Positions 2 to 36,738 of a DNA stretch of 64,000 nt are shown here, piece by piece. How positions within the stretch are numbered: position 1 is the stretch's first letter; each line of letters begins with the position of its first letter. The notes under the pieces were generated by a model. The model searched no databases and was not told the origin of the DNA. It was given only the letters and a program-made list of their open reading frames with translations. Made by a program: the position numbers and the translations under genes. This stretch comes from a virus, in the IMG/VR virus record IMGVR_UViG_3300042896_000657, positions 1 to 64,000 of that record; one strand, written 5' to 3'.

Positions 2-973
2 AGTGGATCATTACCAGCATTAGGAAGTGGTTCTTACGGTGGTTCATTCAATGGTGGTGTTGCCGCAACTGGTAGAGTACAACTAATGAATGAAAGTATA
101 ACAACAACAAACGTACAAGGATTTCATCCAAATTTAGATTATTCTGCTGCATTTACATTATTACAAAATGCTGATGAATATCAATATAATGTATTACTAG
201 CACCTGGTGTTGGTTTAGATACGGCTGGTGCTGCATCAATGATTTCTACTGCAGAAGGTAGAGGTGATGCAATCGCTATTGTTGATAACGGAATATATGG
301 TACTTCAATAAATGGTGCTGTTACGAATGCTGGTGGTTCTTCAAGTAATTATGGTGCTACTTATTATCCATGGGTTCAATTATTTAGCTCAAACTTAGGT
401 AAAGTTGTATGGGCTCCACCATCAGTAGTAATGGGTGGTGTTTATGCATTTAATGATCAAGTTGGTGCTGAATGGTTTGCTCCAGCTGGTTTAAATAGAG
501 GTGGAATTCCATCAGTAGTAAGAGCAGAACGCAGATTACAACAATCAGATAGAGATACATTATACGAAGGAAACGTAAATCCATTAGCAACATTCCCTGG
601 AAATGGAGTTGTAGCATTTGGTCAGAAAACATTACAACGTAAACAAACATCTTTAGATAGAGTAAATGTTCGTCGTTTATTAATTGCATTAAAAGGATAT
701 ATTGGTAATGTTTCTCGTGAATTAGTGTTTGAACAAAATACAGCAGTAACAAGAAACCGTTTCTTATCACAAGTTAATCCATACTTAGAGTCAGTAGTAC
801 AACGTCAAGGTTTGTTTGCTTTCAAAGTAGTGATGGATGATACTAATAATACAGCTGATGTAATTGATAGAAATCAATTAGTAGGTACAATTTATATTCA
901 ACCTACTAAAACTGCTGAATTTATTATATTAAACTTCAATATTCTTCCAACAGGAGCTAGTTTCCCAGCATAA
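2..973 (+). CDS. Tail sheath protein (C-terminal part, cut by window start)
   Basis: Contractile tail sheath subunit, the T4 gp18 equivalent, which polymerises around the tail tube and contracts on infection. The frame is open from base 2 through the window edge, so the true start lies outside; the ATG at 86 is internal. What is visible matches the conserved C-terminal sheath fold: a segment rich in Gly/Ser, a central VLLAPGVG-type strand, a stretch about adopting a position with tail (WAPPSVVMGGVYA) and the terminal region with LVGTIYIQPTKTAEFIILNF, typical of sheath C-termini. The tail tube gene follows 56 bp downstream, as in T4-like phages. The N-terminal portion cannot be assessed. Confidence 0.9.
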   Translation, partial: SGSLPALGSGSYGGSFNGGVAATGRVQLMNESITTTNVQGFHPNLDYSAAFTLLQNADEYQYNVLLAPGVGLDTAGAASMISTAEGRGDAIAIVDNGIYGTSINGAVTNAGGSSSNYGATYYPWVQLFSSNLGKVVWAPPSVVMGGVYAFNDQVGAEWFAPAGLNRGGIPSVVRAERRLQQSDRDTLYEGNVNPLATFPGNGVVAFGQKTLQRKQTSLDRVNVRRLLIALKGYIGNVSRELVFEQNTAVTRNRFLSQVNPYLESVVQRQGLFAFKVVMDDTNNTADVIDRNQLVGTIYIQPTKTAEFIILNFNILPTGASFPA

Positions 974-2374: not shown

Positions 2375-3289
2375 ATGATTAAACTATTAGATTTATTAAA
2401 AGAATATGGTAATCAAGGACCCTCATCACCTGAATCATATTTAATAGAAAATGAGGAAATTCAAAAAATCCCATTTTCTGATATATCTAAAATCTCTAAT
2501 TTAGAATACGATATGGGTGGTGGAGAAACATCACTATATGAAGAATATAATATAGTTGTTATAGATAATATTCCTGTAGAAGAATTTGCTCAAGATCCAG
2601 GTGGTGATAAAAAAATATATATTGAATATAATTTAGAAAATTCATATTCATTTCCAAAAGCAAATAAAATTTATTTATCTCAAATAGTATATCACATAGA
2701 TAATATAGAAGCATTAGCTAAAACAGTAAATGACTCCTTAAAATCTAATGGTATTCTTGATTTTTTTAGTGATATTATGTCTAAAGAAGATAAACAATTT
2801 ATAAAAATATTAGTTGAAAACTATGGTTTTTTCTTACCTGATGATGCTTCTATAAAATCTCTTTCAAAATATAAAGAAAAAAACTTATTATTACGTCGTG
2901 GTACACCATATACAACTCCGAAAAAGGAAAAATTTATTCCTAAAGAATGGGTATATGATATAACAACAAAAGAAGGTAATGCTCGAGTAAAATATACACT
3001 ACTAGATATAAATTACGATACATTTGCTTTTGGTAAATATGATGAGGATACTGTAAATAAACATACTTATGTAGGTACAGATAAAATATCAGGTACTATT
3101 CCTGATAGATATTTTTTAATGGATAGAAATTCTAGAATGAAAGGAGTAAAACCCAATTATATAGGAATAAGATTTTCTTTAAAAGATTGGAATCCTGAAA
3201 AAGGACCATTTCCCTATTATCAAATTCCTGATGGTAACTACTGGAAAGTAACACCTTGGAATATAATATCTTTTAAAAGAATACAATAA
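2375..3289 (+). CDS. Hypothetical protein with possible capsid-targeting leader
   Basis: I do not recognise this 304-aa protein. It is hydrophilic, has no obvious signal peptide or membrane segment, and lies between a homing endonuclease and the tail assembly gene. The N-terminus, MIKLLDLLKEYGNQG, is a short amphipathic helix ending in L-K-E. This resembles the (L/I)-x-E cleavage site used by T4-type prohead proteases and is weakly similar in style to the leaders at 14451, 15291 and 15588. The C-terminal third contains paired aromatic motifs (FPYYQIPDGNYWKVTPWNI). A virion or head-packaged role is only an inference. Confidence 0.5.
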   Translation: MIKLLDLLKEYGNQGPSSPESYLIENEEIQKIPFSDISKISNLEYDMGGGETSLYEEYNIVVIDNIPVEEFAQDPGGDKKIYIEYNLENSYSFPKANKIYLSQIVYHIDNIEALAKTVNDSLKSNGILDFFSDIMSKEDKQFIKILVENYGFFLPDDASIKSLSKYKEKNLLLRRGTPYTTPKKEKFIPKEWVYDITTKEGNARVKYTLLDINYDTFAFGKYDEDTVNKHTYVGTDKISGTIPDRYFLMDRNSRMKGVKPNYIGIRFSLKDWNPEKGPFPYYQIPDGNYWKVTPWNIISFKRIQ

Positions 3290-12713: not shown

Positions 12714-13997
12714 ATGTTTTATATTATAGAGAAAAAAGAACAACTAGCTAAATTACAAGATTTAGGAGATTGTTTTATTAATTTTATCCCACTAAACAAT
12801 AATTTTCATCCTAAATTAACGGACATAAGTGTAATATACATTAGGCCAATAAATCACAAAAAAGGATGGATGATATGTATCAAACATAATGAGGCATTTA
12901 GTTTAGATAAGGGTGAAGTACTAAATCATATTTTTAATAATACCGATAAAATATTTGTATTACAAAAGAAGGAAACACTGTATCATTTCCCACATCTCGA
13001 AAAACTATACGATATTAATTTTATTGAATACGTTAATATAAATGACAATATTATTGTAAATAAATGTATTGAATTCTATTACAGAAAACATTACAATAAT
13101 CCAATAATAAATTCATTAATCCCCATCAGTAAACACTATGAGGAGCAAGATAGTATATTTGATATGGTTATACCAATAATACGTAAATACAACGCAAATG
13201 ACGTCATTTATCAATTTAATAACAACTTATCTAGCGTAGCATTTAACCGTATTGAGGAAGCAGGTATAGCGTTGAATAAACGTTGTTTTGTAGAACATTA
13301 TAATGATAAACTACATTATCCTGAATTTAATATTTACAAAGGTAAAATATATACTCAATACAATTTATACACAACAACATCACGTCCTTCAAATAGATTT
13401 AATGGTATTAATTTTGCTGCTTTAAATAAAAATGATGATGAAAGATTATGTTACGAGCCATCTAACGATATGTTTATTGAGATGGATTTTTCAGGATACC
13501 ATCCTCGATTAATTGGTGAATTAATTAATTATCCCTTAACAGCTGACAACATATACGATAGTTTAAATGTGGGTAAGGAAGAAATGTTTCAAAATCTATA
13601 TGGTGGTATAAGAAAAGAATATAAAGATAAACCATTCTTTAAAGAAGCATCACAATATATAGATAATGTATGGACATTATTAAATGAGGATGGTAAAATA
13701 CATACTGTAAATAATATATTTTATTTAGATAAAATTGAAAATCCAAATCCTACAAAAGTATTTAACTATATTATTCAGAGTTATGAAACATCAACAAATG
13801 TTAAAATAATATTGGATATTATTGATTATTTAAAAGATAAACAAACAAAATTAGTGCTTTACACATATGATGCGATGCTTTTTGATTATTCAGAATCAGA
13901 TGGGGTTGAATTATTAGAAGAAATTAAAAAAATTATGAAATATCCTGTTAAAATTAAACAAGGAATTAATTACAAAACCATGGAAAGTTATGTATAG
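12714..13997 (+). CDS. Divergent family A DNA polymerase-like protein
   Basis: 427 aa. The last 210 residues match the family A (Pol I) polymerase motifs in order: TTSRPSNRFNGINFAALNK corresponds to the TGRLSS...NLQNIP motif; FIEMDFSGYHPRLIGEL to motif A (D kept, the E of DYSQIEL is replaced by H); KEEMFQNLYGG to motif B with the exact K-x3-F-x3-YG spacing; YNYIIQSYETST-like Q region; and YTYDAMLFD to motif C (HDE becomes YDA, D kept). No 3'-5' exonuclease domain is apparent in the N-terminal half. The same phage has a full family B polymerase at 30090, so this is a second polymerase. The next gene overlaps by 8 bp. Whether it is catalytically active cannot be told, since one acidic residue and the motif B arginine are not conserved. 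Confidence 0.65.
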   Translation: MFYIIEKKEQLAKLQDLGDCFINFIPLNNNFHPKLTDISVIYIRPINHKKGWMICIKHNEAFSLDKGEVLNHIFNNTDKIFVLQKKETLYHFPHLEKLYDINFIEYVNINDNIIVNKCIEFYYRKHYNNPIINSLIPISKHYEEQDSIFDMVIPIIRKYNANDVIYQFNNNLSSVAFNRIEEAGIALNKRCFVEHYNDKLHYPEFNIYKGKIYTQYNLYTTTSRPSNRFNGINFAALNKNDDERLCYEPSNDMFIEMDFSGYHPRLIGELINYPLTADNIYDSLNVGKEEMFQNLYGGIRKEYKDKPFFKEASQYIDNVWTLLNEDGKIHTVNNIFYLDKIENPNPTKVFNYIIQSYETSTNVKIILDIIDYLKDKQTKLVLYTYDAMLFDYSESDGVELLEEIKKIMKYPVKIKQGINYKTMESYV

Positions 13998-14439
13998 TGT
14001 TGTTTCTCAATATCCTGATATATTTATTTTGGATATAGTAAACGAAAATATGAGTAATAAATTGTTCTGTACATTTACCGCACAAGATGCTGTTGAGGAC
14101 ACCATATCTAAAATAAATAATAAATATTCAATATTATTTAATAAAATATTTATCCTTGAATCTCCACATTCTGAGGAATTGATTTGTACATATAATATTG
14201 ATGCCGGGAATGTTTCTAGTATTCCTCTACCTAACACAATATTGCTACATAGAAAGAAAGAATCAAATACTCTTTATACAATTAACGCACTTAATACATT
14301 AATTAAATCATTAAATGGTGGTTTATTAGATAATAGATACCAGATTGAATGGGATAACTATAAAAATTGTATTTTGTTGACTACCGGAGTAGAGCTTCGT
14401 CGATTAGATACGAAAATTTTTAAAATAATTAATTTATAA
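13990..14439 (+). CDS. Conserved-looking hypothetical protein coupled to the family A polymerase
   Basis: 149-aa protein of unknown function, overlapping the end of the polymerase-like gene by 8 bp, so translational coupling is likely. The C-terminal half (SIPLPNTILLHRKKESNTLY, then TINALNTLIKSLNGGLLD, then YQIEWDNYKNCILLTTGVEL) has a mixed alpha/beta pattern that I have the impression of seeing in other T4-like marine phages, but I cannot name the family. No catalytic motif is apparent. Confidence 0.6.
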   Translation: MYSVVSQYPDIFILDIVNENMSNKLFCTFTAQDAVEDTISKINNKYSILFNKIFILESPHSEELICTYNIDAGNVSSIPLPNTILLHRKKESNTLYTINALNTLIKSLNGGLLDNRYQIEWDNYKNCILLTTGVELRRLDTKIFKIINL

Positions 14440-14450: not shown

Positions 14451-15254
14451 ATGAAAACAAATAGACTACAAGAACTAGCAGGAATAATTACCGAAGGGGC
14501 ATTAGATCCAGCTAATGAAGAAAATATATTTAATAATTTAATAGATACCGACCATTCAGAACTTGTAAATAAATTATTAGAGGCAGCAGATACTAATCCA
14601 TCATTAACATTAGTAGATTTTTTAAAGACATTTGATATTGGTGCTGGTGAAGAAGATGATTTAAATGAAGTTGAAGAAGATGAATCAACAACTAATCCAT
14701 ATGAAGAAGCTATTTCATATTTAGAAGATATATCTAAAAAAGGAGAATTAACTCCGGATCAAATAAAAGATATAGTAGGAAGATTAACTTCAGCTCGTAA
14801 ACAATTCTTTACTTCTCAAAGAACACCAGACTCTTATAAATCTTCTGCTGAAAAAGCAAAAGCAACAATAGCTAAAGATAAAGCAAATACAGAGAAATGG
14901 AGAAAAATATTTAATGACAGAAATTTAATACCTGATGCTAAAGATCAAGCAGAAAAAAATATATTACCCATTGAAGTAAATGATTATTTTTTCACTCCAG
15001 ATCCAAAATATTATGATCTTCTTAATAAACCTAAACCTCTCCCTGATGATAGAGGACCTAATTACACACCATTTCTAATACAACGAGATATTGAATTAAC
15101 AAAAAATGGTGGAAGAGGATATGGTGAATATATTATTAAAGATGAATATAGAGATAAACCAATTTCTGGAACATTAAAATTATCAAAATTAGGTAAAGAC
15201 TTAGGGGAATTTAGTGTTAAGGATTTTTATAGAAAATTAGGATATAAAATTTAA
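14451..15254 (+). CDS. Putative head-packaged protein with capsid-targeting leader
   Basis: 267-aa acidic, helical protein of unknown function. The N-terminus MKTNRLQELAGIITE-GA is a short amphipathic leader ending in I-T-E followed by Gly-Ala. T4 internal proteins use similar leaders, which the prohead protease gp21 removes after (L/I)-x-E. Two downstream proteins carry a closely related leader. The mature part has a Glu/Asp-rich section (about residues 60-85), a long charged helix (about 120-160) and a C-terminal basic domain. Function as an internal head protein or injected protein is inferred from the leader only. Confidence 0.6.
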   Translation: MKTNRLQELAGIITEGALDPANEENIFNNLIDTDHSELVNKLLEAADTNPSLTLVDFLKTFDIGAGEEDDLNEVEEDESTTNPYEEAISYLEDISKKGELTPDQIKDIVGRLTSARKQFFTSQRTPDSYKSSAEKAKATIAKDKANTEKWRKIFNDRNLIPDAKDQAEKNILPIEVNDYFFTPDPKYYDLLNKPKPLPDDRGPNYTPFLIQRDIELTKNGGRGYGEYIIKDEYRDKPISGTLKLSKLGKDLGEFSVKDFYRKLGYKI

Positions 15255-15290
15255 ACAAATAATATCATTAAAATAATAAATAAAATTAAA

Positions 15291-15575
15291 ATGAAAACCC
15301 AAATCAACGAAATCAAAAGAATGCAGCAATTAGCTGGTATTATCAATGAAAATCAAATAATAGAAAATCAATATGAAGATGGCTTCGAACCAATTAAAGA
15401 TGATACATCAAATATCCAACCAGGAGATGGTGTAGTAAGTGTTAATGGATATTTTGGTGAGTTTAAAGGTATCAATAATAAAGGAAAATATGTTATTATA
15501 TATGATGCTTATGGTGAAAGAGGAGTATATTCAAAAGATAATTTTATAAAATATTTTCAAGTACAAAAGAAATAA
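15291..15575 (+). CDS. Small protein with capsid-targeting leader (copy 2)
   Basis: 94-aa protein beginning with M plus KTQINEIKRMQQLAGIINE, a 20-residue leader identical to that of the next gene. The remainder (about residues 25-94) is a compact beta-rich domain: PGDGVVSVNGYFGEFKGINN, KGKYVIIYDAYGERGVY. That resembles a small SH3/KOW-like barrel, although I cannot assign a family. Preceded by an A-rich leader. Probably packaged in the head and cleaved after I-N-E, by analogy with T4 internal proteins. Confidence 0.6.
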   Translation: MKTQINEIKRMQQLAGIINENQIIENQYEDGFEPIKDDTSNIQPGDGVVSVNGYFGEFKGINNKGKYVIIYDAYGERGVYSKDNFIKYFQVQKK

Positions 15576-15587
15576 CAAAAATAAAAA

Positions 15588-16061
15588 ATGAAAACACAAA
15601 TAAACGAAATTAAAAGAATGCAGCAATTAGCTGGCATTATTAATGAATCTAAAAGAACTCCTGATTTAAAATCATTAAATGAGAATACTACTCCTATTAA
15701 TTATGAAAAATTAAAACAAATATTACTTCTAGCTTGCAACACATATCCAGAAGGAGATCATGGATATGGGGATGTAGAACCTTTATATGAAAAAGATGAA
15801 GTAAAAAATACTATAAAGTATATAATGAAATTAGAAAAAGGAGTAAAAAATAATGATGAAGATATTTTTGATAAATTAGAAGACCAAGAACCTTCAACTT
15901 TTATAGGAGCAGTGCATTTAGATGATGCTCAAAAAGCCAAATGGGATGATTTTGATCTAGCATTAGGTGTATTATCAGAAATAGCATATGAGTATGATCT
16001 TGATGATGCAGCATCAGCACTTAATGATTTAGCACAAGAAATTAATTCATTCCAATTATAA
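15588..16061 (+). CDS. Small protein with capsid-targeting leader (copy 3)
   Basis: 157-aa acidic protein starting 12 bp after the previous gene, with the same 20-residue leader. Between the two genes the 60 leader nucleotides differ at only five third-codon positions, all synonymous. The body is helical and acid-rich (YPEGDHGYGDVEPLYEKDEV; LDDAQKAKWDDFDLALGVL; YEYDLDDAASALNDLAQEI), and gives no family match I know. Presumed head-packaged protein. Confidence 0.6.
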   Translation: MKTQINEIKRMQQLAGIINESKRTPDLKSLNENTTPINYEKLKQILLLACNTYPEGDHGYGDVEPLYEKDEVKNTIKYIMKLEKGVKNNDEDIFDKLEDQEPSTFIGAVHLDDAQKAKWDDFDLALGVLSEIAYEYDLDDAASALNDLAQEINSFQL

Positions 16062-16102: not shown

Positions 16103-16127
16103 AAAACCCGCTCTCGCGGGTTTTTTT
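16103..16127 (+). terminator. Rho-independent terminator
   Basis: Strong GC stem CCCGC (16107-16111) / GCGGG (16116-16120), extended by A-T pairs, with a TCTC loop and a seven-T run (16121-16127). It separates the leader-peptide genes from the replication operon. Confidence 0.9.
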
Positions 16128-16129
16128 GG

Positions 16130-16157
16130 CTGTCACAATAAAAATTAGTATATTCAA
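16130..16157 (+). promoter_or_regulatory. Promoter-like motif before gp32
   Basis: CTGTCACAATAAAAATTAG followed by TATATTCA, immediately after the terminator and 37 bp before the gp32 start. The same motif (TTGTCAcAATAAAAATTg-TA-ATT) recurs at 22858, 32825 and 63403. It resembles the Bacteroidota TTG / TAnnTTTG promoter arrangement. Confidence 0.55.
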
Positions 16158-16193: not shown

Positions 16194-17030
16194 ATGGATT
16201 TATCATTAATCAAAAACAAATTGGCAGGTTTGCAACAAAAGCCTGGACAGACTTATGAAAAAGTAGATTACACTAAAATTTTCTGGAAACCAAAAGTAGG
16301 TACATATCAAGTACGTATTGTACCATCAAAATTCAATAAACAAAACCCATTTAGAGAAGTATTCTTCCATTATGGTTTTACTAAAGGCCCTATCTTAGCA
16401 TTAACAAATTGGGAAGAAAAAGATCCAATCGTTGAATTTGCTAAAAAACTACGTAAATCATCAGATAAAGAAGATTGGCAATTAGCTAAAAAATTAGACG
16501 CTAAAATGCGTATTTTTGCTCCTGTTATTATTCGTGGTGAAGAACACTTAGGCACTCGTCTATGGGAATTTGGTAAAGAAATATATCAACAATTGTTAGG
16601 TATTGCTGCTGATGAGGATTACGGTGATTTTACTGATATTCAAGATGGTCGTGACTTTACAGTTGAGGCAACAAATGGTGAAGTTGCAGGTCGTAGTGTA
16701 ATTAAATGTGCTTTACGCCCAAAACCAAAAACCACTCCAATTTCTACAGATGCTACTCTATTACAAAATATACTAGATGAACAACCAGATATATTAACTA
16801 TTAATAGAAAATATAATTTTGATGATTTAAAAGCAATATTAGAGAAATTCTTAAATCCTGAAGAAGAGGAAGAAGTTAATGCAGTTGCTAATACTATTTC
16901 TTCTGATGAAACTGATGATGAGCCTTCAGATTTACCTTGGGAAGCTGAAACTCCATCAAAACCATACACTTTAGAAAATAGTACTCCTAAAGCAAAAAAT
17001 ACTGATAAATTCGATTCACTATTCTCCTAA
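16194..17030 (+). CDS. Single-stranded DNA-binding protein (T4 gp32-like)
   Basis: 278-aa ssDNA-binding protein that coats replication and recombination intermediates. The N-terminal helical segment and FWKPKVGTYQVRIVPSKFNK region followed by the FREVFFHYGFTKGPILALTN block are typical of T4-like gp32 cores. The C-terminal 60 residues are strongly acidic and end in a short conserved-style tail (KNTDKFDSLFS), the expected protein-interaction tail. I see no H-C-C-C zinc motif as in T4 gp32. First gene of the replication operon; UvsX follows 14 bp later. Confidence 0.85.
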   Translation: MDLSLIKNKLAGLQQKPGQTYEKVDYTKIFWKPKVGTYQVRIVPSKFNKQNPFREVFFHYGFTKGPILALTNWEEKDPIVEFAKKLRKSSDKEDWQLAKKLDAKMRIFAPVIIRGEEHLGTRLWEFGKEIYQQLLGIAADEDYGDFTDIQDGRDFTVEATNGEVAGRSVIKCALRPKPKTTPISTDATLLQNILDEQPDILTINRKYNFDDLKAILEKFLNPEEEEEVNAVANTISSDETDDEPSDLPWEAETPSKPYTLENSTPKAKNTDKFDSLFS

Positions 17031-34815: not shown

Positions 34816-35109
34816 ATGAAAGTTATACCTTTGCACAGCAATGTGCTTATTAAACAACAAGACGAAACAGAAACAATGTATGGAAACATTATTGTACCAG
34901 ATGCTGGAAAAGAGAAAGTTATGATAGGAGAAATCATAGCAATAGGGCCAGGAGCATATAGTGTCACTGGTGAAGTATTTTTAGAAACTAAATTAAAAGT
35001 AGGTCAAGTAGTAACATTTCCTTCATTTGGTGGACAACGCATTACAATAGAAGGTGAAGATTATTTAATATACAAAGAACAAGACATATACGCAATTTTA
35101 GAAAAATAA
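34816..35109 (+). CDS. groES: GroES co-chaperonin (T4 gp31-like)
   Basis: 97-aa GroES-family lid protein, which caps GroEL during folding. Recognised by MKVIPLHSNVLIKQQDETET, the mobile-loop region MYGNIIVPDAGKEKV in which the hydrophobic IIV corresponds to the GroEL contact, MIGEIIAIGPGAYSVTGEV, KVGQVVTFPSFGGQRITIEG and EQDIYAILE. T4 itself carries only a GroES-like gp31; here a GroEL gene follows after 3 bp. Confidence 0.93.
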   Translation: MKVIPLHSNVLIKQQDETETMYGNIIVPDAGKEKVMIGEIIAIGPGAYSVTGEVFLETKLKVGQVVTFPSFGGQRITIEGEDYLIYKEQDIYAILEK

Positions 35110-35112
35110 GAA

Positions 35113-36738
35113 ATGAGTAAAATTATTAGTTTCGATAGAGAAGCAAAAGAAAAATTACAAGCTGGTATTGATAAAGTAAATAAAGCAGTATCAGTAACAA
35201 TGGGTCCTTATGGACGTAATGTATTAATTGAAAAAGAACATGGTCAAGTAACATCAACAAAAGATGGTGTAACGGTTGCTAAATCTATTACATTAGAAGA
35301 TTCTATTGAAAATATGGCAGCAACAGTAATTAAACAAGCAGCATCTAAAACAGTTGATGCAGCGGGAGATGGTACTACAACTTCAACAGTATTAGCTCAC
35401 GCTATTGCTTCTGGAGCATTAAGTACTACATCTTACCCATCAACAAATGCTACTCAGGTAAAACGTGGTATAGAGGATGCTGTAAAAGAAGTGGTTGCTG
35501 AATTAAAAAAGATGTCTATTGACATTACTGATGAAAAGCAAATTAAACAAATTGCTACATTATCAGCAAATGGAGATGAAGAAATTGGAAATCTAGTTAC
35601 CGAAGCATTAGATAGAGTTGGACGTGATGGTGTAGTTACAGTAGAGGAATCTCGTACTGGAGAAACTTCATTAGAAGTAGTTGAAGGTTTACAATTTGAT
35701 AGGGGATATAAATCTCCATATTTTGTAACTGACAATAGCACGATGCAAGCCGTATTAAATGACGCTTTAATATTGTTATTCAACGGTAGAATCAGTGCTG
35801 TTAAGGACTTATTGCCTCTATTAGAATCCGTTTCTCAACAAAATAAATCACTATTGATTGTTGCTGAGGAATTAGATGGAGAAGCATTAGCTACTCTAAT
35901 TGTAAATAAAATGCGTGGATCACTTAAAGTAGCTGCTGTAAAAGCACCTGACTTTGGAGAACGCAGATTGCATATTCTAGAGGATATGGCAACTTTAACT
36001 GGAGGTCAAGTTGTATCAACTGATAAAGGTATGAAGTTGGATAAATTCAATACAGATTGGTTTGGTAATGCACGTGTTGTAACTGTAGGTAAAGAAACTA
36101 CTACAATTGTTGATGGTAAAGGAGATGCAGATATAATTGAGACACGTATTCTAGATTTAAAACAACAATTAGATAATTCAAAATCACCATATGAAGTTGA
36201 AAAACTACAAGAACGTTTAGCTAAAATGGTAGGTGGAGTTGCAATTATTAATGTTGGTGGTGGTACTGAAATTGAAATGAAAGAGAAAAAAGACCGTTTA
36301 GACGATGCTTTGCAAGCTACAAAAGCTGCTCTTGAAGAAGGTATTCTACCAGGTGCTGGTGTTGCATTATTACATGCTAGAAAATCTATTAATTTAAAAG
36401 GTGAAAATGATAAAGTAAAAGGTGCACAAATTGTATTCCAAGCTTGTGCTACTCCATTTAAACAAATTTTAAATAATGCTGGAGAAGATCCTCAAGAATG
36501 GTGGGATAAAATTTACAATAATCATTTCTCTAGTATGGTACCAGAATTATCAACTGGAGAAGTAACAGATGCTTTCAAATCAGGTATTATTGATCCTACT
36601 AAAGTGGTACGTTGCGCTTTAGAAAATGCAGCAGCGGCCGCAGTAACACTATTAATGACTGAATGTGTAATATATGATAAACCTGAGGATAAAAAATCCA
36701 ATGGTGATGGAGTAGATATGTCACAATTTGGAATGTAA
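35113..36738 (+). CDS. groEL: GroEL chaperonin (Cpn60)
   Basis: 541-aa full-length GroEL. Equatorial and ATP motifs are SVTMGPYGRNVLIEKEHG, DGTTTSTVLAHAI; the apical region includes KDLLPLLESVSQQNKSLLIV and the intermediate domain has GGGTEIEMKEKKDRLDDALQ with the catalytic Asp region. The C-terminus is DGVDMSQFGM instead of GGM repeats. A complete GroES/GroEL pair on a phage genome is uncommon and with Hsp20 upstream suggests heavy self-provision of folding. Sequence alone cannot tell whether it forms one or two rings. Confidence 0.95.
   Translation: MSKIISFDREAKEKLQAGIDKVNKAVSVTMGPYGRNVLIEKEHGQVTSTKDGVTVAKSITLEDSIENMAATVIKQAASKTVDAAGDGTTTSTVLAHAIASGALSTTSYPSTNATQVKRGIEDAVKEVVAELKKMSIDITDEKQIKQIATLSANGDEEIGNLVTEALDRVGRDGVVTVEESRTGETSLEVVEGLQFDRGYKSPYFVTDNSTMQAVLNDALILLFNGRISAVKDLLPLLESVSQQNKSLLIVAEELDGEALATLIVNKMRGSLKVAAVKAPDFGERRLHILEDMATLTGGQVVSTDKGMKLDKFNTDWFGNARVVTVGKETTTIVDGKGDADIIETRILDLKQQLDNSKSPYEVEKLQERLAKMVGGVAIINVGGGTEIEMKEKKDRLDDALQATKAALEEGILPGAGVALLHARKSINLKGENDKVKGAQIVFQACATPFKQILNNAGEDPQEWWDKIYNNHFSSMVPELSTGEVTDAFKSGIIDPTKVVRCALENAAAAAVTLLMTECVIYDKPEDKKSNGDGVDMSQFGM

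Follow-up and report, generated by a model that had tools for sequence, protein, structure and literature searches.

In phage T4, the internal proteins IPII and IPIII carry the N-terminal capsid-targeting sequence (CTS) MKTYQEFIAE. Ten residues of IPIII are enough for the packaging of foreign proteins, with targeting depending mainly on residues 4 and 7 and processing on residues 8 and 10 (PMC9026906). The T4 proteins IPI and Alt are active in the next host, and a 2.5-kDa fragment of gp22 is among those kept in mature T4 heads (PMC9026906). The CTS has been reported not to be conserved in other core proteins, and the localisation of proteins to the core has been called 'mysterious' (PMC9958956). 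The head-packaged proteins of the giant phages SPN3US and phiKZ also have N-terminal propeptides that are removed by a prohead protease cutting after glutamate; unlike the leaders described below, these propeptides are mostly 111-254 residues long (two are of 20-24), and the relevant passages report no shared leader motif (PMC10052503).

The window, the whole stretch of 64,000 nucleotides analysed here, opens an IMG/VR record of 113,980 b, covering its first 64 kb. Three neighbouring proteins encoded in the window share an N-terminal leader (Table 1), as the sequence-only reading had proposed. The 20-residue leader is identical in the 94-aa and the 157-aa proteins, and the 267-aa protein has a shorter version. 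The 60-nt segments encoding the two identical leaders differ at five positions (ACC/ACA, ATC/ATA, ATC/ATT, GGT/GGC and ATC/ATT), all of which are synonymous third bases, in agreement with the earlier reading. Comparison of the three bodies detected no similarity (best E of 0.27-1.5); the bodies are unrelated, as had been claimed. All three leaders end in L/I-x-E. The prohead-protease rule noted earlier thus stands, but the GA said to follow the site is found only in the 267-aa protein (ITE then GA), whereas the sites of the 94-aa and the 157-aa proteins are INE then NQ and INE then SK. A profile of 40 rows, the window's own leaders among them, was searched against the whole 113,980-b record as a check proposed by the same reading; it recovered the two identical leaders (E = 9e-14) and the shorter one (Table 1), with scores that chance could not plausibly give, and no leader beyond these three. 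The leader and the next ~50 residues of the 267-aa protein recur in relatives in which the C-terminal part is variable or absent. A small beta domain follows the leader of the 94-aa protein at low confidence; the AlphaFold models of this protein (pLDDT 46) and of the 267-aa protein (pLDDT 38) are poor. A tblastn search with the 94-aa protein against cultured phages gave no matches. The cultured relatives that carry the leader are the Flavobacterium phages vB_FspM_immuto (immuto), in which it is borne by gp083 and gp230.

Table 1. Coordinates of the leader genes, the borders of the cargo slot and the left edge of the record (positions in the window).
Feature	Position	Strand	Remarks
Tail-sheath gene, C-terminal part	86-973	+	60% identity to residues 432-708 of immuto tail sheath
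304-aa protein	2375-3289	+	Class B leader MIKLLDLLKE (2375-2404), 10 residues, T4 CTS-like
DNA polymerase homologue, family A	12714-13997	+	Left border (12714-14439) of variable cargo slot; synteny with immuto and relatives
149-aa neighbour of DNA polymerase homologue	13990-14439	+	Left border of variable cargo slot; synteny with immuto and relatives
267-aa protein	14451-15254	+	Short class A leader MKTNRLQELAGIITE (14451-14495); predicted cut before GALDP; profile E 2.5e-6
94-aa protein	15291-15575	+	Class A leader MKTQINEIKRMQQLAGIINE (15291-15350); predicted cut before NQIIE
157-aa protein	15588-16061	+	Leader (15588-15647) identical to that of 94-aa protein; predicted cut before SKRTP; body unrelated
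ssDNA-binding protein	16194-17030	+	Right border of variable cargo slot; synteny with immuto and relatives

The three leader genes fill a variable slot bordered by the gene that accompanies the DNA polymerase and by that of the ssDNA-binding protein. The same slot in the relatives is empty, holds one to five leader genes (five in the closest relative, L006/L134) or is occupied by other genes. A sequence resembling an intrinsic terminator, CCCGCTCTCGCGGGTTTTTTT (16106-16130), ends the leader-gene cassette ahead of the gene of the ssDNA-binding protein.

IMG/VR was scanned with degenerate leader patterns ending at LAG or LAGII, and proteins from all loci with the motif within the first 45 residues were counted once each as leader proteins. 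This leader, hereafter class A, is 15-23 residues long with an invariant Q-LAG core. It was found on at least 253 distinct proteins of the relatives with unrelated bodies, which fall into ~197 groups, an approximate number as the grouping by shared 4-mers is crude. The proposal that the leader is a swappable tag is thereby extended well beyond the window. Among the matches listed, [ILVM]xE occurs at -1 to +2 residues from the LAGI end in 239 of 253 proteins (94%), compared with 8-10% at other places; since the scan patterns stopped at LAG or LAGII, the glutamate after them was not selected for. The usual leader end is IIxE followed by S, N, G or A. In a set of 6310 distinct proteins, the motif occurs at least 247 times N-terminally, at least 89 times C-terminally and at least five times internally, and it was never found in shuffled proteins. 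Within the listed set, the C-terminal carriers are the proteins encoded at the gene-22 position. Two ORFs, L044:2585 (- strand, 250 aa) and L064:980 (+ strand, 444 aa), have leader copies in mid-ORF, besides or instead of the one at the start, and each copy is followed by an IxE site; they are apparently fused cargos that the protease could separate.

The leader might be unrelated to heads, serving as a tag for localisation, stability or secretion in the infected cell, or being a sequence that hitch-hikes by recombination. Most of the bodies have no known function, and the cassette of the window is flanked by replication genes, not head genes, both of which would suit this explanation. However, the codons of the invariant leader residues vary among the relatives, and together with the purely synonymous differences in the window this shows that the peptide is conserved rather than the DNA. 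The leader lacks the hydrophobic core of a signal peptide; a Sec or lipoprotein signal was rejected by inspection, as the leader is charged (NEIKRMQQ) and has no long hydrophobic run. Moreover, leader genes lie within the head module of several relatives (L236, L237, L239, L241, L243 and L244), among the gp20, gp21 and gp22-position genes, and the match described next also points to the head. A function outside the head is thus very improbable.

The core of the leader, RMQ[QK]LAGI, is also the extreme C-terminus of the scaffold encoded at the gene-22 position. This tail is present in 15 of 15 head modules of relatives beyond immuto; two of the modules (L247 and L248) are near duplicates, and the motif itself had led to some of the records, whereas seven (G006-G012) were chosen by similarity of the ssDNA-binding protein only. 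Variants of the tail in these modules include RMQKLAGIIK, RWQMLAGINKF, RFQKLAGITKY, RMQKLANIIK and RWQVLAGIK. The corresponding protein of immuto, gp067, is acidic, is encoded between the protease and gp23 and has the C-terminal end ISEVSEQVSRWQKLAGIIK. Family searches with gp067 gave no match naming a scaffold, and it is called a scaffold here because of its position and composition. Its database entry (L217:5626-6867, NC_055915) reads 'DNA polymerase phi-like protein', an apparent misannotation. The scaffold tail was also found in Microcystis phage Mel-JY01 (ILNESNNVVERMKKLAGIVK), in which the leader was not detected, and in a 484-kb uncultured phage (ILNEDVEMKSRMQKLADIS). A profile built from 40 N-terminal leaders and no scaffold sequences (A1) recovered the scaffold tails in whole-genome searches of immuto (E = 1.5e-5), G004 (1.4e-5), G001 (4.2e-4) and G005 (6.9e-4), with weaker matches in G006 and G011.

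The scaffold and the cargo proteins have the same kind of motif, with a cleavage site between the motif and the body. However, the motif is C-terminal in the scaffold and N-terminal in the cargo, such that the order is mirrored: body, site, motif and end in the scaffold; start, motif, site and body in the cargo. An [ILV]xE lies upstream of the scaffold tail in 74 of 76 cases, compared with 62% of stretches of the same length in these proteins, a background that makes the site before the scaffold tail weak evidence when taken alone. Leader and scaffold co-vary at the M/W position (5/23 vs. 0/30, Fisher p = 0.012), which is only suggestive as the calculation ignores relatedness. Helical amphipathicity of the motif had no significance against shuffles and is not claimed. 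The motif is absent from the scaffolds of T4, P-SSM7, phi-ST2 and D508; thus, the mechanism is not directly transferable. T4 gp22 (L249:6118-6927) also has a cleavable-looking C-terminal segment, although the tail sequence is different. The segment after FVTE has 24 residues and a calculated mass of 2.52 kDa, which fits the 2.5-kDa fragment of mature heads, an unconfirmed assignment.

These comparisons suggest that the leaders are quite probably capsid-targeting propeptides, the core of which is borrowed from the docking tail of the scaffold. The class A leader resembles the T4 CTS in being a short N-terminal peptide on unrelated proteins with an L/I-x-E end of the gp21 type. It differs from the CTS in being longer, in having its own Q-LAG core and in matching the C-terminus of the scaffold. 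The earlier assignment to T4-type capsid-targeting peptides is thus supported as to kind, whereas the sequence is not that of T4 MKTYQEFIAE and matches the scaffold C-terminus of the relatives instead. In the proposed mechanism, the leader would be a removable propeptide in a large group of aquatic T4-type phages, of which the member in culture that bears the leader infects Flavobacterium. While the prohead assembles, the tag would place an unrelated protein on the docking site of the scaffold tail, most likely on the inner surface of the gp23 shell. A cut by the gp21 protease after [IL]xE would then release the cargo within the head. The scaffold would be released likewise by a cut before its tail, so that one cut frees the docking peptide in both. 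The cargo would remain with the DNA and presumably enter the next host by injection, like IPI and Alt of T4. The sequences themselves show the shared motif, the mirrored sites, the exchangeable bodies and the gp21 of the relatives, whereas the docking partner, head packaging, removal of the leader, injection and the function of the cargo are inferred. A point against this mechanism is that the cargo bodies are mostly acidic (84% with pI <6), in contrast with the basic internal proteins of T4.

The C-terminal tail of the herpesvirus scaffold binds the major capsid protein and is removed by an assembly protease related to gp21. The phage tail would be similar in being short, shell-docking and removed by a protease, a likeness drawn from general description and not from sequence, and we know of no cargo proteins that borrow the herpesvirus tail. 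Alternatively, a targeted and cleaved leader might join or bind the scaffold core, for example by tail-to-tail pairing, rather than a site on the shell. T4 internal proteins co-purify with gp22, and their propeptides have been described with affinity for the core (PMC9026906), in keeping with such binding. However, a copied scaffold tail most simply shares the partner of that tail, which need not be the scaffold itself, and binding to the core appears unlikely, if worth weighing, beside docking on the shell.

Neither gp21 (PF03420) nor gp23 was found in the 113,980-b record of the window. The left edge of the record falls inside the tail-sheath gene, and the terminase, portal, protease, scaffold and gp23 genes of immuto all lie in the stretch that is absent from the record; the two genes are thus probably missing because the record lacks the head module. 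The prohead protease sought by the sequence-only reading was not found in this record but is present in relatives: gp21 was found in 16 of 20 records, with immuto as the positive control, including all 12 IMG/VR records longer than 150 kb, whereas the four records in which it was not found are of 46-123 kb. The genomes of the relatives also have gp20 and gp23. In an alignment of 45 gp23 proteins with that of T4, nearly all have [LI]VxE| where T4 is cut at LTE|A, a position resembling the usual leader end IIxE|. The motif could instead be what the prohead protease or some other head factor recognises, bringing substrates to gp21, with packaging being secondary. The [IL]xE site always adjoins the motif in the cargo, and immuto gp21 has a site of its own, LLTE, close to its N-terminus, as might be expected of such a role. 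However, gp23, inferred to be a substrate of gp21, has a conserved site but no LAG motif nearby, indicating that the motif is not required for cutting, and T4 gp21 needs little beyond L/I-x-E (PMC9026906). Recognition by the protease is thus an improbable primary role, and docking through the borrowed scaffold tail remains the preferred explanation. Two neighbouring ORFs of the window (34816-36738) look like those of phage GroES (97 aa) and GroEL (541 aa), both of which are annotated in immuto. Chaperonins are involved in T4-type head assembly.

The 304-aa protein near the left end of the window (Table 1) had been considered a possible fourth member of the set. Its leader is indeed recurrent; however, it belongs to a second class (class B) and is not the same leader. 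Class B was found on 54 proteins in the relatives, in 38 groups with other bodies, and has E at position 10 in 67 of 75 cases when E was not required. It agrees with the T4 IPII/IPIII sequence in length, in the hydrophobic residues at positions 4, 7 and 8, in the acid at position 6 and in E at position 10. A third leader (class C, MKxSxLRxLIKEEI and similar) precedes about 36 unrelated bodies, for example in L004:18098-18430 (101098-101430 of its record) and in L252, and is similar to the N-terminus of a conserved protein whose gene lies in the head module between those of gp20 and gp21. The 484-kb phage has an array of class C leader genes. T4-type phages might load their heads by molecular mimicry, each class of cargo leader having been transplanted from one end of a core head protein: the C-terminus of the scaffold for class A, the N-terminus of the gp20-gp21 protein for class C and perhaps the N-terminus of gp23 for class B. 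A tag of 10-23 residues might then turn any gene into packaged and injected cargo; this generalisation is somewhat less likely than not.

When 179 cargo proteins were compared with Pfam and PHROGs, and 110 of them also with NCBIfam, hardly any could be assigned a function. One cargo protein (L050:584-1144) resembles the Acb1-like 2H phosphoesterases, having both HxT motifs and a match to Pfam Acb1 (anti-CBASS) of 26.8 bits against a cut-off of 27; no PDB match to it was found. Another leader-bearing cargo protein (L009:3895-4359) also has two HxT motifs. The Acb1-like cargo would fit a role in early counter-defence, for which the evidence is thin.

Capsid-targeting propeptides as a kind are known from T4, whereas this leader family appears to be new, as do its scale and the identity of the leader with the scaffold tail; no earlier report of the family was found in the literature searched, which covered few subscription papers. 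A cargo leader whose counterpart is the tail of the scaffold, itself a core protein, offers a concrete and testable docking mechanism, and a tag that copies this tail suggests a route by which unrelated proteins may be loaded into the head and delivered to the next host. With the leader as a sequence handle, about 200 groups of small and mostly unknown proteins of aquatic phages can be marked as probable head-packaged cargo. This set, with one Acb1-like member, is a place to seek new counter-defence proteins, and reporter proteins tagged with the leader could be loaded into Flavobacterium phages.
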